A stretch of 64,000 nucleotides of DNA from Blastococcus sp. PRF04-17 (GTDB taxonomy: Bacteria > Actinomycetota > Actinomycetes > Mycobacteriales > Geodermatophilaceae): NCBI RefSeq assembly GCF_023016265.1, contig NZ_CP095412.1, forward strand, positions 4,464,001 to 4,528,000, written 5' to 3'. A model generated the notes under the pieces. It was not told the origin of the DNA. It did not search any database and was given only the letters and a program-made list of their open reading frames with translations. Each line of letters begins with the position of its first letter. Position 1 is the stretch's first letter. Shown here piece by piece: positions 42,757-47,967 of this stretch. The translations under genes and the position numbers were made by a program.

Positions 42757-42879
42757 CCGCCGCTCCTCCGTGCACCGTCCCCGCGGATCGCTCCGCCGTG
42801 GAGGACCACTGTTCAGCGTGGCACGGGACGCAGCGCGGTGCCTGCCGGACGCGCGCTCAGGGTGAGGGACACTGGAGCC

Positions 42880-43551
42880 GTGGCGAACGCAGTGACCGGC
42901 ATCCTGGCCAGCAGCACCCCCGACCTGGCGGCTCCGGACGTGGCCCGCCGGGCGTGGCCGCAGTGGCTCGCTCTGGGTGGCGGGATGATCGCGGTCGCCG
43001 TCGCCGCGCTCGTGTGGCAGGCGGCGGGCGCCCGGCTGCTGCTCGGTGCGGTCGGGCTCTTCCTGGCGGTTCGGGGCGCGCTGCTGCTGCGCGGCGCACG
43101 GTCCGGGGCCATGAGCGCCGCCGTGGCCGACCGCGCCCGTGGCCTGGGTGCCGCATCGGTGGCCGCGGGCGCCGCCGCGCTGGTGGTCGCCGCCGTGTCG
43201 GGCGCCGCGGCGGCGGGGGTGCTGGTGATCGCCGTACCCGTGGTGCTGCTGGCCGGCGCGGCGTCGTTGCTGGCCCGCCGGGGCCCCGGTCGCAAGGTGC
43301 TCGGCGTCGCCACACTGGTCTGGGGGGTCCTGGTCACCGGCCTGCTCGCCCTCGCGGGAGCCACCCAGGGGTGGGAGCGCGCCGCGGAGGCCGCCACGGT
43401 CGTGACCGCGCTGGTGCTCGCCGTCCTCGCGGTGCCGCTCATCGTCTCCGCCCTGGGTCTGCGTCAGGTGGCGGCCCGGCCGGCACCGCCGCCGTCCCGT
43501 CCGGCGGCCTGCGCCGGCTGCGCTTGCGGCGCCGGCGGCTGCGGGGCCTGA
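42880..43551 (+). CDS. Five- to six-helix membrane protein with Cys-rich C terminus
   Basis: A 223-aa protein of Ala/Val-rich membrane segments from about residue 30 to 205, ending in CAGCACGAGGCGA, with four cysteines in the last 13 residues. Such a tail could bind metal or be an odd low-complexity end. GTG 42880 follows GGAG. No family recognised. It precedes the macro-like/SIR2 gene by 51 bp on the same strand. Confidence 0.7.
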   Translation: MANAVTGILASSTPDLAAPDVARRAWPQWLALGGGMIAVAVAALVWQAAGARLLLGAVGLFLAVRGALLLRGARSGAMSAAVADRARGLGAASVAAGAAALVVAAVSGAAAAGVLVIAVPVVLLAGAASLLARRGPGRKVLGVATLVWGVLVTGLLALAGATQGWERAAEAATVVTALVLAVLAVPLIVSALGLRQVAARPAPPPSRPAACAGCACGAGGCGA

Positions 43552-43602
43552 CCCGGGCGCATCCGGACGGTTCCGGGCCGCCGGCTGGGTACAGCACGGG
43601 CC

Positions 43603-45222
43603 GTGAGCGGTCACGTCTTCGTCGTCGGCGCGGACCTGACACGGCTGTCCTGCGACGACGTCCTGGTGCCGACCGACCGCTCGCTGCGGGTGTCGTCGGG
43701 CTGGTGCCCGCTGCTGCCGCCGCAGCTGATCGGCGGGCACGACGACGACAGCGCCTGCCTCGACCTCGAGTGGTCCGGGAACGGGCGCGTGCTGCGCGTG
43801 CCGGGGGACGGCGACCGTTGCGTGTGGCTGGTCGACACGGTCGACGCCTCCGACCGGGAGGGCGACGGCAGTCTCGACCGGCTGATCGACGGCGCGCGCG
43901 AGGCGCTGGCCGCCGTGGCACGGCGCGACGTGCCGGTGCCGGCGCACGGCCGGGCCAGGCGGCTGGTCGGGCTCCCGGCGCTCGGCACCGGCTGGGGCGG
44001 TGCGGCCGGTGAGCGCGGGGCGCTCCTGCAGCGGCTGCTCCCGGTGCTGCGCGCGGCGGCGGAGGAACACGGTTTCGACGTCGCCCTGGTGCTGCGCGGC
44101 CCGAGCGATCTCGCCGCCGCCCAGCGGGTGCGGCGTGGCGAGGACGGCGGCTGGGACCTGCCCGACCACCTGCGGGAGGTGGCCCGGCAGCTCGGGGAGC
44201 GGGCCCGGCGCGGACAGCTCGCGGTGTTCATCGGCGCGGGCGTGAGCGCCGCCGCCGGGCTGCCCACGTGGGAGCAGCTGCTGGGGGAGCTGGCCGAGCG
44301 GACCGGTCTGGCCGACGACCTGCGGGCCGGTCTCGAGCGGTTGCCGGCGCAGGACGCGGCGGCACTGCTGGCGCGGGAACTCGGCCGCGAACAGCTGGAG
44401 GGCTACGTCAAGGAGCGGTTCGGGCCGGGCCCGTACGCGCTGGCCCACGCACTGATCGCCGACCTGCCGGTGCAGGAGTTCGTGACCACGAACTACGACC
44501 CCCTGGTCGAGCTGGCGGCCGCCGACATCGGGCGCGACGTGCGGGTGCTGCCCTTCGAGGAGGCCGCGCCGGGCCATCCCTGGCTGCTCAAGCTGCACGG
44601 GGACGCCGCCCATCCGGAGAGCGTCGTGCTGACCCGCGAGGAGTACCTGCAGTTCGGGGACAGCCGGGCCGCGCTGGCCGGCGTCCTGCACTCGCTGCTG
44701 CTCACCCGGCACGTGCTCTTCGTCGGCACCTCGATGCTGGACGACGACCTCGTCCGCATCGCCCACCAGGTCCGCAGCGCCCTCCAGCTGCAGGGGACGC
44801 CGTCCGAGCGGCGCAACGGCACGGTGCTGGCCCTGCGCCACGACCCGGCGCGGGCGCGGCTGTGGGAGCGGGACGTCGAGACGATCGCGATGAGCGCCGG
44901 CGACACGTCACCGGCCGAGGCGGCGCGGCGGCTCGAGGTGCTGCTCGACCTGATCGGCTGTCTGTCCACCCCGCCGACCGGGTACCTGCTCGACCCGGCC
45001 TACCGGGGCATGCTCGACGACGAGGAGCGCCGGCTGTCCGACGCGCTGTCGGCGGTCGCGACGACGCTGCCGGACGACGTCCGCTCGTCCGCGGCGGCCG
45101 AGGTCGGTGCGCTGCTCCGGCGGCTGGGTCACCGCGGCGGGGCGGGGGGCGGCGAGGAGCCTCCGCCCGACGGCGCGACCGCCGACCGCGACGACCGCGT
45201 GCAGGAGCAGCGCCCGGGCTGA
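43603..45222 (+). CDS. Macro-like/SIR2 fusion protein
   Basis: A 539-aa two-domain protein. Residues about 1-165 look like a divergent macro (ADP-ribose-binding) domain: FVVGADLTRLSCDDVLVPTD at the N terminus and VGLPALGTGWGG near 122-133, then HGFDVALVL. Residues about 200-455 are a SIR2-like NAD domain: GAGVSAAAGLP (211-221), FVTTNYDPLVE with Asn297, KLHGD with His332 and FVGTSMLDDDLV. SIR2_2-type domains are NAD hydrolases in several anti-phage systems; whether this one is, is inference. The tail is Gly/Glu/Pro-rich. Start GTG 43603. A CYP152 gene follows after 40 bp. Confidence 0.82.
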   Translation: MSGHVFVVGADLTRLSCDDVLVPTDRSLRVSSGWCPLLPPQLIGGHDDDSACLDLEWSGNGRVLRVPGDGDRCVWLVDTVDASDREGDGSLDRLIDGAREALAAVARRDVPVPAHGRARRLVGLPALGTGWGGAAGERGALLQRLLPVLRAAAEEHGFDVALVLRGPSDLAAAQRVRRGEDGGWDLPDHLREVARQLGERARRGQLAVFIGAGVSAAAGLPTWEQLLGELAERTGLADDLRAGLERLPAQDAAALLARELGREQLEGYVKERFGPGPYALAHALIADLPVQEFVTTNYDPLVELAAADIGRDVRVLPFEEAAPGHPWLLKLHGDAAHPESVVLTREEYLQFGDSRAALAGVLHSLLLTRHVLFVGTSMLDDDLVRIAHQVRSALQLQGTPSERRNGTVLALRHDPARARLWERDVETIAMSAGDTSPAEAARRLEVLLDLIGCLSTPPTGYLLDPAYRGMLDDEERRLSDALSAVATTLPDDVRSSAAAEVGALLRRLGHRGGAGGGEEPPPDGATADRDDRVQEQRPG

Positions 45223-45262: not shown

Positions 45263-46486
45263 ATGGTGCGACTGGAGAACGGCCTGCTCCTGCTCGCCAA
45301 GGGCTACGGCTGGTTGCCCGACAAGCGCCGGGCACTGGGCCGGCGGACCGTGCCGACCCGGCTGGGCGGGATGCCGGCGTTCGGCATCGAGGGCCCGGAC
45401 GCCGCGCGGTTCCTCTACGACGAGGATCACGTGCTGCGGTCGCACGCCATCCCCGAGCCGGTGCAGGGCACGCTGTTCGGCAAGGGCGCCGTGCACACCC
45501 TCGACGGCGAGGAGCACCGGGTCCGCAAGGCCATGTTCGTCGCGCTGCTCATGCGCGAGGAGGGCATCGCCTCGCTGGTGCAGCGGGTGACCGAGGCCTG
45601 GGACGACGCCGCCGCCGAATGGGCCCGCCGCCCCTTCGTCGTGCTGTTCGGCGAGTCCGCGCAGGTGATCGCCGGCGCGGTGACCCGCTGGACCGGCGTC
45701 CCCGTGCGCGACGACGAGGTGCCGTCCCTGGCCCGCGACCTGCAGGCGATGGTCGACGGCTTCGCCACCGGCGGGCCCCGGCACTTCCGCGCGCGGCGGG
45801 CTCGCGGCCGTCGCGAGGCGTGGCTGGCGCAGCTCGTCCGCGACGTGCGGAGCGGGACGAGGACGGTGCCTGAGGACTCCGCGGTGGCCGTGGTCGCCGA
45901 TCACCGGGACGCCGATGGCGCGCAGCTGGACTCCCGCGTGGCGGCCGTCGAGCTGCTCAACATCATCCGGCCCACGACCGCGATCAGCTGGTTCGTCGCC
46001 TTCTCGGCGCACGCCCTCATCCGCTGGCCGGAGGTGCGCAAGCGGCTGGCCGACGGCGACCCGGCCTTCGCCGAGGCCTTCGCCCACGAGGTGCGCCGGT
46101 TCTACCCGTTCGCTCCGTTCATCGGCGGCCGGGCGGCACAGCAGCTCGAGTGGGACGGCGAGCCGATCCCGGAGAACGCGATGGTGCTGCTGGACCTGTA
46201 CGGGCAGAACCACGACGCCGACCTGTGGGGCGACCCGTACGCGTTCCGGCCGGAGCGCTTCCTCGGCCGACAGATCGGGGAGTTCGAGCTGGTGCCGCAG
46301 GGCGCCGGCGAGCCGCGCACCAACCACCGCTGCCCGGGAGAGCAGATCACCGTGGCGGTGCTGTCGGCGCTGGCCGTCCGGCTGGCCCGGCTGGAGTTCG
46401 ACGTGCCCGAGCAGGACCTGTCGATCTCGCTGCGCCGGATCCCCGCGAAGCCGGCCAGCGGCGTCGTGCTCAGGGTGCGGGGCTAA
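45263..46486 (+). CDS. CYP152-family fatty-acid peroxygenase/decarboxylase P450
   Basis: A 407-aa cytochrome P450. The heme ligand is Cys357 in NHRCPGEQ. The CYP152 hallmark RP is present as Arg236-Pro237 in NIIRPTTAISWF; that Arg binds the fatty-acid carboxylate and substitutes for the usual acid/alcohol pair. In the distal pocket, Phe72 and His78 (LFGKGAVHTLDG) align with Phe79 and His85 of OleT-JE, whereas BSbeta-type hydroxylases have Gln there. This favours a decarboxylase making terminal alkenes using hydrogen peroxide, though other His-type CYP152s mainly hydroxylate. The start is ATG 45263. A hairpin at 46503 follows. Confidence 0.88.
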   Translation: MVRLENGLLLLAKGYGWLPDKRRALGRRTVPTRLGGMPAFGIEGPDAARFLYDEDHVLRSHAIPEPVQGTLFGKGAVHTLDGEEHRVRKAMFVALLMREEGIASLVQRVTEAWDDAAAEWARRPFVVLFGESAQVIAGAVTRWTGVPVRDDEVPSLARDLQAMVDGFATGGPRHFRARRARGRREAWLAQLVRDVRSGTRTVPEDSAVAVVADHRDADGAQLDSRVAAVELLNIIRPTTAISWFVAFSAHALIRWPEVRKRLADGDPAFAEAFAHEVRRFYPFAPFIGGRAAQQLEWDGEPIPENAMVLLDLYGQNHDADLWGDPYAFRPERFLGRQIGEFELVPQGAGEPRTNHRCPGEQITVAVLSALAVRLARLEFDVPEQDLSISLRRIPAKPASGVVLRVRG

Positions 46487-46534: not shown

Positions 46535-46729
46535 GCGCCTGCGACAACGGCCGAAGGAGGCTTGGTAAGGCGCTGCACTCGTACGGCGAAGTCACCGTGC
46601 CGGTTGGATCGCCGAGATGGGCATGCCCTCCCCGTTCGCGTCGCCCGGGGACGAGGCAAGCTTCCCGCCTGGGATGCTGCCGAGCGCACGGCCCCGGGTG
46701 TCCACGGGCGGCTGCGCCAAGATGGGCGG

Positions 46730-47722
46730 GTGGCCAGCAAGTCAGTCCCTGAGGCGATCCGCGCGACTGTGGGAGCCCTGCCCTCTAGCAAGAAGCAACT
46801 CAAGAAGCTTGGTCAACGTCTCGTCGATGGGACAGCGACTGCCGAAGATCAGGAATCATATAACCAAACGATCGCATTCTACGACGATCTACAAGCAGCC
46901 ACCGTGAATGCCCTAGTTCACATTCCCTGGGAAAAGGTCGCAAAGGCTCCTGGGGAAGTCATTGTCGCCGGTCGCGCGAAGACTTTGGACACGCTCTTGC
47001 AGAAGTTGGAGCGCACGCCGGAGATCGGCTTTGCCAACGTGCGCGATGTGGCTGGCGTCCGCGTCGTGGGTGACTTCACCCTGGCTGAGCAGGACGTCGT
47101 GGTGGGAGTGATCAAGCGAGTGTTCCAGTGCCCCGACGCCCAAATTATTGATCGCCGGGCGCAGCCCGAGGCTGGATACAGAGCAGTGCATGTAGTCCTC
47201 CCGCTGTGCGGAGTCCACGTCGAGGTCCAAGTCCGCACTCGCCTGCAGCACCACTGGGCCGAGCTGTTCGAACGGCTGGCAGACCAGTGGGGACGTCAGA
47301 TCCGCTATGGAGGCGCCCCCGACCCGGGGGACTCCAGCGAGCTCGCCGAGACCCGCAAGGAGTTTGTCCACGACCTGCAGCAGGCGAGTGTCGAGGTGAT
47401 CGCGCCAATGGAAGAGACGCGGTCCAGCATCGATCTGCTGCGCCGCGCGGTGACGGGAGACGTCCAAAGCGACGACCCAATGCTCGAACGGATCGCGAGG
47501 ACGGCACCAGACATGACGATCACTTCAGAGGAGCTGCCAGACCTTCCGCCGGAGTTGGCCCACACGGGCAACCTCACCGCGGTACTGGACTGGGAGATGG
47601 CGAAGGCGCAAAGCCTCGCCAACCAATTGGGGGAATCTCTGCTGCAGTTCAGTGCGCTGCTTGCCGAAGACGAGGAGACGCAGGGTCCTCAGGCCTACGA
47701 TGAGGGGGTGACGCAGCCGTGA
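46730..47722 (+). CDS. Stand-alone RelA/SpoT synthetase-domain protein
   Basis: A 330-aa protein with a RelA/SpoT nucleotidyltransferase domain (about residues 75-190) and no HD hydrolase, TGS or ACT domain. Motifs match alarmone synthetases: VAGRAKTLDTLLQKLER, RDVAGVRVVGDF, EAGYRAVHVVL, VEVQVRT with the catalytic-type Glu165, and HHWAELFERLADQWG. Flanking helices at 15-60 and 205-330 are probably regulatory. Start GTG 46730 after GGGCGG. Base composition is clearly less GC-rich than neighbours. It overlaps an 82-aa gene by 4 bp (GTGA). It could be a small alarmone synthetase or a toxSAS-type toxin; which is not decidable here. Confidence 0.85.
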   Translation: MASKSVPEAIRATVGALPSSKKQLKKLGQRLVDGTATAEDQESYNQTIAFYDDLQAATVNALVHIPWEKVAKAPGEVIVAGRAKTLDTLLQKLERTPEIGFANVRDVAGVRVVGDFTLAEQDVVVGVIKRVFQCPDAQIIDRRAQPEAGYRAVHVVLPLCGVHVEVQVRTRLQHHWAELFERLADQWGRQIRYGGAPDPGDSSELAETRKEFVHDLQQASVEVIAPMEETRSSIDLLRRAVTGDVQSDDPMLERIARTAPDMTITSEELPDLPPELAHTGNLTAVLDWEMAKAQSLANQLGESLLQFSALLAEDEETQGPQAYDEGVTQP

Positions 47723-47967
47723 GCAGTTTCCTGCTGGTCTACAACCGTCGAACCGGGCAACTGGAGCATGAGGAGTTCGCGGGGGAGCGAGGCCGTCGGC
47801 GTGCCCTCCGCCGACGCTTAGAACTTGAGCGAGACCGACCGAGCAAGGACATTGAGGTTGTCGTGCTGTCGGCCAACTCCATCGATCAGATCAAGCAAAC
47901 GCACGGACGGTACTTCCGGACAGCCAGTGGTCTTCTACGTGACACGGCCCAGCTGGACCAGGTGTAG
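47719..47967 (+). CDS. Small partner protein of the RelA/SpoT gene
   Basis: An 82-aa protein whose GTG overlaps the preceding stop by 4 bp, so the two are translationally coupled. It has an N-terminal beta hairpin (SSFLLVYNRRTGQLEHEEF), a very basic Arg-rich helix (RGRRRALRRRLELERDRP), a strand IEVVVLSANS and a final helix with QIKQTHGRYFRTASGLL. No family is recognised. Its size, coupling and charge fit an antitoxin or regulator of the synthetase, or an RNA-binding subunit; this is inference. Confidence 0.8.
   Translation: MSSFLLVYNRRTGQLEHEEFAGERGRRRALRRRLELERDRPSKDIEVVVLSANSIDQIKQTHGRYFRTASGLLRDTAQLDQV

Follow-up and report, generated by a model that had tools for sequence, protein, structure and literature searches.

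A divergent macro domain fused to a SIR2_2 domain in Geodermatophilaceae: a candidate ligand-gated NAD hydrolase with relatives in ADP-ribose-processing gene clusters

Among bacterial suicide effectors, SIR2 NADases form a major class, and for each of them the main question is what triggers it. The window analyzed here, a 64,000-nucleotide stretch of Blastococcus DNA, poses this question through a gene that an earlier note had read from the letters alone as a macro-like domain fused to a SIR2-type NAD domain; a macro domain in the same chain suggests that an ADP-ribose metabolite may be the SIR2 switch. The macro-SIR2 ORF (Table 1) is real, conserved and coding. Its GTG start corresponds to the same first residue in an alignment of orthologues and, in the orthologue comparison, the fraction of differing sites is 0.29-0.46 at codon position 3 vs. 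0.07-0.30 at positions 1 and 2. This concentration of changes at position 3 indicates that the ORF codes for a real protein. The lowest differences at positions 1 and 2 (0.07-0.15) are those of the SIR2 domain, the most conserved part of the gene. The protein consists of a macro-fold domain, a SIR2_2 domain and a helical tail, in that order.

Table 1. Features of the macro-SIR2 gene and its flanks, in window coordinates
Feature	Position	Strand	Basis or remark
Small membrane-protein gene, upstream (start approximate)	42847..43551	+	Found at the site also in species without macro-SIR2
Leader with ORF, a unit that is either there or cleanly missing between the membrane-protein stop and the P450 5' leader	43552..45222	+	Empty-site comparison
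Macro-SIR2 protein gene (539 aa, GTG start)	43603..45222	+	ORF call and orthologue comparison
Macro-fold domain (residues 1-179), putative sensor of an ADP-ribose-type ligand	43603..44139	+	Profile vs. PDB; AF2 model; Foldseek/VIA
Asp11, at the alignment position of the GD(I/L)T-type macro-domain Asp	43633..43635	+	Alignment, profile
Macro loop 2, LPALGTGWGG (diphosphate loop), residues 124-133	43972..44001	+	Alignment and profile
SIR2_2 NAD-binding domain, about residues 200-425	44200..44877	+	Pfam, PADLOC, PDB chains
GAGVS NAD-binding motif, residues 211-215	44233..44247	+	Alignment
Asn297 in TTNYD, matching the Asn of TTNYD in ThsA	44491..44493	+	Alignment, ThsA match
His332 in KLHGD, matching the His of K(M/L)HGD in ThsA	44596..44598	+	Alignment, ThsA match
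Helical C-terminal region and tail ending DDRVQEQRPG	44878..45219	+	Alignments, full-length model; kept in most orthologues
Cytochrome P450 gene, downstream after a 40-bp gap, syntenic	45263..46486	+	Retained in many species without macro-SIR2

No macro model in Pfam was matched at E≤1 by any of 18 diverse members of the family, and profile and fold comparisons were therefore used in place of Pfam. A profile of the first 190 residues of these 18 members, run against the PDB, gave macroH2A macro domains as its best matches (7ny6, E 4.2e-8; 1yd9, E 7.8e-5). Because a full-length AlphaFold2 model from an alignment of 23 close orthologues was weak (pLDDT 51.7), being good in the N-terminal part only and poor in the SIR2 half, residues 1-186 were modelled alone (pLDDT 81.8, pTM 0.80); neither model drew on the more divergent family sequences. 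Foldseek placed macro domains at the top of the matches to this model (E 1.1e-6, probability 1.00, TM to query 0.56-0.65). The top VIA Z scores were about 13-15, those of about 15 spanning about 150 residues, with OiMacroD and YmdB both at 14.7, PARP9 macro 2 at 14.6 and macroH2A1.1 at 14.3. The structural matches were macro domains almost throughout, and the top ones included designed hydrolases built on a macro scaffold. Profile and model together thus identify the N-terminal domain as a predicted macro fold, divergent enough to be missed by library searches, which bears out the reading in the earlier note; the two stretches quoted there, VGLPALGTGWGG (residues 122-133) and DVALVL (159-164), fall on macro loop 2 and on a core strand of the domain, respectively. 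That the likeness is a matter of chance, the N-terminal region having a Rossmann-like instead of a macro domain, would account for the lack of Pfam macro matches in all 18 members, but is scarcely credible given the profile E value to macroH2A and Z scores of about 15 to macro domains.

Alignment of the 18 members shows that loop 2 is kept, while loop 1 is divergent (VPTDRS, or PTDRS-type) and lacks the NAAN plus glycine run that is the loop 1 signature of macro hydrolases. With loop 2 kept and the hydrolase signature missing from loop 1, we read the domain as a binder rather than an eraser, fitting a predicted role in binding an ADP-ribose-type ligand.

The only Pfam domain found in the 539-residue protein is SIR2_2 (E 5.7e-28, residues 292-421). 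The PADLOC ThsA model also matches the SIR2 part (E 1.4e-31), and the nearest solved chains are ThsA-type, over residues 192-395, followed by DSR2 and KomC, all of them aligning to the SIR2 part. In the 18-member alignment, Asn297 is invariant and His332 is present in at least 90% of members; the NAD motifs with their Asn and His are thus intact, as had been claimed from the letters. With a predicted macro fold and intact SIR2 motifs, neither of the outcomes that the earlier note had named as refuting its reading was encountered. Residues 200-425 contain zero cysteines and the four-cysteine zinc-binding module of sirtuin deacylases is therefore absent. By analogy with its family (ThsA, DSR2, KomC), the SIR2_2 domain is a putative NAD hydrolase. 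The extreme C-terminus of the protein, DDRxQEQRPG (45190-45219), is strongly kept in most orthologues, though the residues that precede it vary, and is missing from the L070/L071/L083/L084 group; the tail might serve as a tag for binding or turnover.

These properties bear on the idea of a SirTM-like writer and eraser in one chain, in which the SIR2 part would ADP-ribosylate a target and the macro domain would remove or read the modification. Macro-sirtuin pairs are known as two-gene systems (PMC9503650), and the gene clusters around relatives of our protein, described below, concern ADP-ribose removal. SirTM operons likewise combine macro and sirtuin functions; however, they do so in two genes and with a protein-ADP-ribosylating sirtuin, whereas we find a single chain with an NADase-type SIR2_2 domain, most like those of ThsA and DSR2 and lacking the zinc cysteines, next to a macro domain that lacks the eraser signature. 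The neighbours are DUF1206, membrane-protein and P450 genes; there is no separate macro gene beside a sirtuin gene, and inspection revealed no lipoylated carrier target and no lipoate/GcvH-type partner genes nearby. We therefore consider the SirTM-like reading improbable.

The closest comparison is with Thoeris. Like the SIR2-SLOG form of ThsA, the macro-SIR2 protein has a SIR2_2 domain of the same family, the Asn/His motifs and a second domain of nucleotide-binding type in the chain. It differs in that its sensor is an N-terminal macro domain rather than a C-terminal SLOG, and in having no ThsB nearby. Neither the SLOG nor the TM partner domain of ThsA was found in the protein, for which Pfam gives SIR2_2 only and whose N-terminus is a predicted macro domain. 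There are precedents both for nucleotide-gated SIR2 and for ADPR-binding macro domains in Thoeris (PMC11204291). The TM-macro form of ThsA described there is also an effector that uses a macro domain as a sensor of an ADPR-type ligand, but its effector part is transmembrane where ours is SIR2; our N-terminus, moreover, has no Pfam macro match, and no ThsB is near. Among 26 family-bearing genomes, 23 had no match to ThsB_TIR (PF08937), and in the other three the match was at least 150 kb away or on another contig. With no adjacent thsB TIR gene in these 26 genomes, identity with Thoeris was rejected. A looser variant, a ThsA with macro in place of SLOG that is activated by a cyclic-ADPR isomer or base-exchange product made by a TIR protein encoded at a distance, could draw on the PADLOC match over the SIR2 part, on the existence of TM-macro effectors and on three TIR matches elsewhere in this genome. 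In view of the missing or remote ThsB_TIR genes and the absence of SLOG, we hold it to be very unlikely. That the protein senses ADP-ribosyl or cyclic-ADPR signals, as the earlier note supposed, is plausible; a Thoeris-like cyclic-ADPR pathway is disfavoured, because no ThsB_TIR gene lies near any family member.

The combination of domains had also been called uncommon. This holds outside Geodermatophilaceae, where macro-SIR2 is sporadic (15/395 genomes drawn from the class), but not inside the family (Blastococcus, Geodermatophilus and others), where a match occurs in 73/115 genomes and in 68 of the 99 good ones, mostly as one orthologue of 72-82% identity. Full-length relatives at 32-46% identity are also encoded in further families of this order and phylum. 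The combination has, in addition, been recorded before: SIR2_2 proteins are labelled 'Macro' in a FAM118 sirtuin tree of 2025 (PMC12700824, Extended Data Fig. 2 legend). These have the same Macro plus SIR2_2 combination, but what the legend provides is a label on a tree, without a sensor model, gene context or function. We found no description of the function or context of macro-SIR2 proteins in the open-access literature searched. The combination itself is thus already known; the divergent macro sensor, the linkage of relatives to clusters of ADP-ribosylglycohydrolase (ARG) genes, and a site of clean presence or absence are new relative to that literature.

Within Geodermatophilaceae, the order thiolase-SDR-DUF1206-membrane protein-macro-SIR2-P450 is kept across the family, and the window gene lies in a conserved chromosomal neighbourhood, not a defence island. 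At this site, we compared nine species that lack macro-SIR2 and have the P450. In 7/9, the membrane-protein gene meets the P450 leader after a short gap and without a remnant; no macro-SIR2 remnant above chance was detected at the empty sites. At L244 and L245, the leader (GCGATTGCCC...GGGGCACCG) is the sequence found right after the macro-SIR2 stop codon in the window. The L247 site has a gap of several hundred bases with an unrelated small ORF, and the L248 site has other genes instead, LysR-type and DUF222/HNH-like by inspection. We infer that the whole unit is cleanly gained or lost, the simplest course being repeated loss. Such clean gain or loss, with the flanks staying in place, is what an effector that is dispensable or costly would be expected to show. 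Split or stop-interrupted copies (G007, G020, G009 and G003) are either a further sign of gene loss or assembly errors. A functional operon with the P450 is weakened as an explanation, since the P450 persists in many species without macro-SIR2. The P450, the position of which is conserved across Geodermatophilaceae, has a CYP152-like look (fatty-acid peroxygenase type).

The GC content of the gene is that of its surroundings. Full-length copies were found neither on plasmids nor in phage records, and matches on viral contigs were to the SIR2 part only. A mobile element or recent acquisition was rejected on native GC, family-wide synteny and the lack of any full-length plasmid, phage or viral copy in the records searched. 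Vertical inheritance across genera, together with this lack of mobile copies, is unusual for a defence gene.

The divergent relatives have a different neighbourhood. In a survey of 25 divergent macro-SIR2 loci, recurrent neighbours included an ADP-ribosylglycohydrolase fused to a dual-specificity phosphatase (PF03747 + PF00782), ARPP-1 (PF20208), NrtR-like NUDIX (PF00293, PF21906), HD_4 and REase-ARP genes. PF03747 was present within 10 kb in 13/25 loci, 12 of them with an intact gene, vs. 0.10 loci expected by chance from the 0-2 ARG genes per genome; at L060 the nearby copy is broken and an intact one lies 18 kb away. ARG-linked loci occur in 5 of 11 taxonomic families and at several separate places in the tree. 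Co-occurrence at the level of whole genomes (21/26 family-bearing vs. 105/198 class genomes) partly reflects shared ancestry and is weak alone; the argument stands on physical proximity. The window orthologue does not share this linkage: in its clade, an ARG gene was found within 8 kb in 0/29 loci, and the sole ARG gene of this genome is about 167 kb from macro-SIR2 and without other cluster genes; it shares 75% identity with the ARG of L061.

We know of no experimental support for the predicted anti-ADP-ribosylation, or ARG-centric, systems to which these clusters lead. Such host systems were predicted in 2022 to counter viral ADP-ribosylation (PMC9503650, section 3.8), and the clusters around the divergent relatives are the ARG-centric systems of that paper: the relatives adjoin the same ADP_ribosyl_GH-DSP, ARPP-1, NrtR-like NUDIX, HD and REase-ARP genes. 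The survey in that paper sought clusters without coupled sirtuins, and it lists Macro, NADAR and REase genes among the additions to ARG clusters. No SIR2 is among the named additions and the window gene lies outside such a cluster; nor did we find, in the available description of ARG-centric systems, mention of a fused macro-SIR2 effector. The relatives beside ADP-ribosylglycohydrolase, ARPP-1 and NrtR-like genes thus tie SIR2 effectors to predicted anti-ADP-ribosylation systems whose published description, in that portion, has no SIR2 effector.

The location of relatives in ADP-ribose-processing clusters adds support for sensing of an ADP-ribose-type signal. Computation covers the gene, its fold and catalytic residues, how relatives are linked and the presence or absence at a fixed site, whereas we infer the ligand, gating, NADase activity, toxicity and defence role in the following scheme, which we think somewhat better supported than not: macro-SIR2 would be an NAD hydrolase gated by a ligand within a single chain, and it probably shuts the cell down in response to an ADP-ribose-type signal. 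The macro domain would bind a small molecule derived from ADP-ribose, ligand binding would alter the packing or oligomerization of the SIR2_2 domain, and this domain would then cleave NAD+ via Asn297 and His332, leading to growth stop or cell death; the macro domain would gate SIR2 as SLOG does in ThsA. In the ARG-linked relatives, the cue may be ADP-ribose or a phosphorylated derivative, freed as the ADP-ribosylglycohydrolase and phosphatase strip modified macromolecules, and the relatives would be the suicide arm of the ARG pathway. The window orthologue would be a stand-alone accessory gene of the same architecture, sensing a metabolite of that kind in the cellular pool.

This scheme has points against it: the window clade is unlinked to ARG genes, the vertical inheritance and lack of full-length mobile copies noted above are unusual for a defence gene, and Asp11 is lost in several ARG-linked members. 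The equivalent Asp contacts adenine in macroH2A1.1; the position is D in 12/18 aligned members and is replaced in the ARG-linked paralogues of Geodermatophilaceae and in the L224/L225 branch. Its replacement in several ARG-linked members suggests that the ligand may differ between clades.

A role in NAD/ADP-ribose homeostasis was also considered, with macro-SIR2 as a housekeeping regulator that trims NAD as an ADPR-type metabolite rises under oxidative or desiccation stress, and no anti-phage function. In several Geodermatophilaceae genera the gene is almost core; it is inherited vertically and in synteny, without mobile copies, and NrtR-like NUDIX genes adjoin the relatives, NrtR being a repressor of the NAD pathway. 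Sporadic occurrence elsewhere (15/395), recurrent clean absence in sister species and the resemblance of ARG clusters with REase-ARP to conflict systems make this role unlikely, though not negligibly so. The ligand-gated hydrolase can be taken one step further, in an extension that we put forward tentatively: macro-gated SIR2 NADases may be the missing suicide arm of ARG-centric systems and, in addition, a free-standing sentinel found family-wide in Geodermatophilaceae. The ADP-ribose sensed would be that freed upon repair of host macromolecules modified by phage ADP-ribosyltransferases, such that repair itself would be the alarm.

Several minor observations concern the neighbouring genes. A REase-ARP nuclease (PF22558) lies near macro-SIR2 in ARG clusters (L061:7773-10094, L062:7821-9953 and L224:16433-17365), pointing to two effectors per system. 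A small protein family (..WLAITxPGARxxIDRxKVWTLIPDRR..NWxVTEDxHxQ..) adjoins the macro-SIR2 of family f8 (G343, G334) and is a possible partner; it is encoded at L090:6615-7022 and twice in L093 (4263-4781 and 10890-11291). DUF222/HNH-like genes, recognized by eye (L248:2767-4050, L022:9677-10903 and L205:14359-15570), occur at or near the membrane-protein/P450 site in two species, with a further one close to this genome's ARG gene. Lastly, a RelA/SpoT-domain gene (PF04607) followed by an 82-aa ORF is found just past the P450 in the window (46586-47967). The GC content of this stretch is clearly lower (0.64-0.68 vs. 0.74-0.79), and it has the look of a small alarmone synthetase module acquired recently, which may be toxic or defensive.
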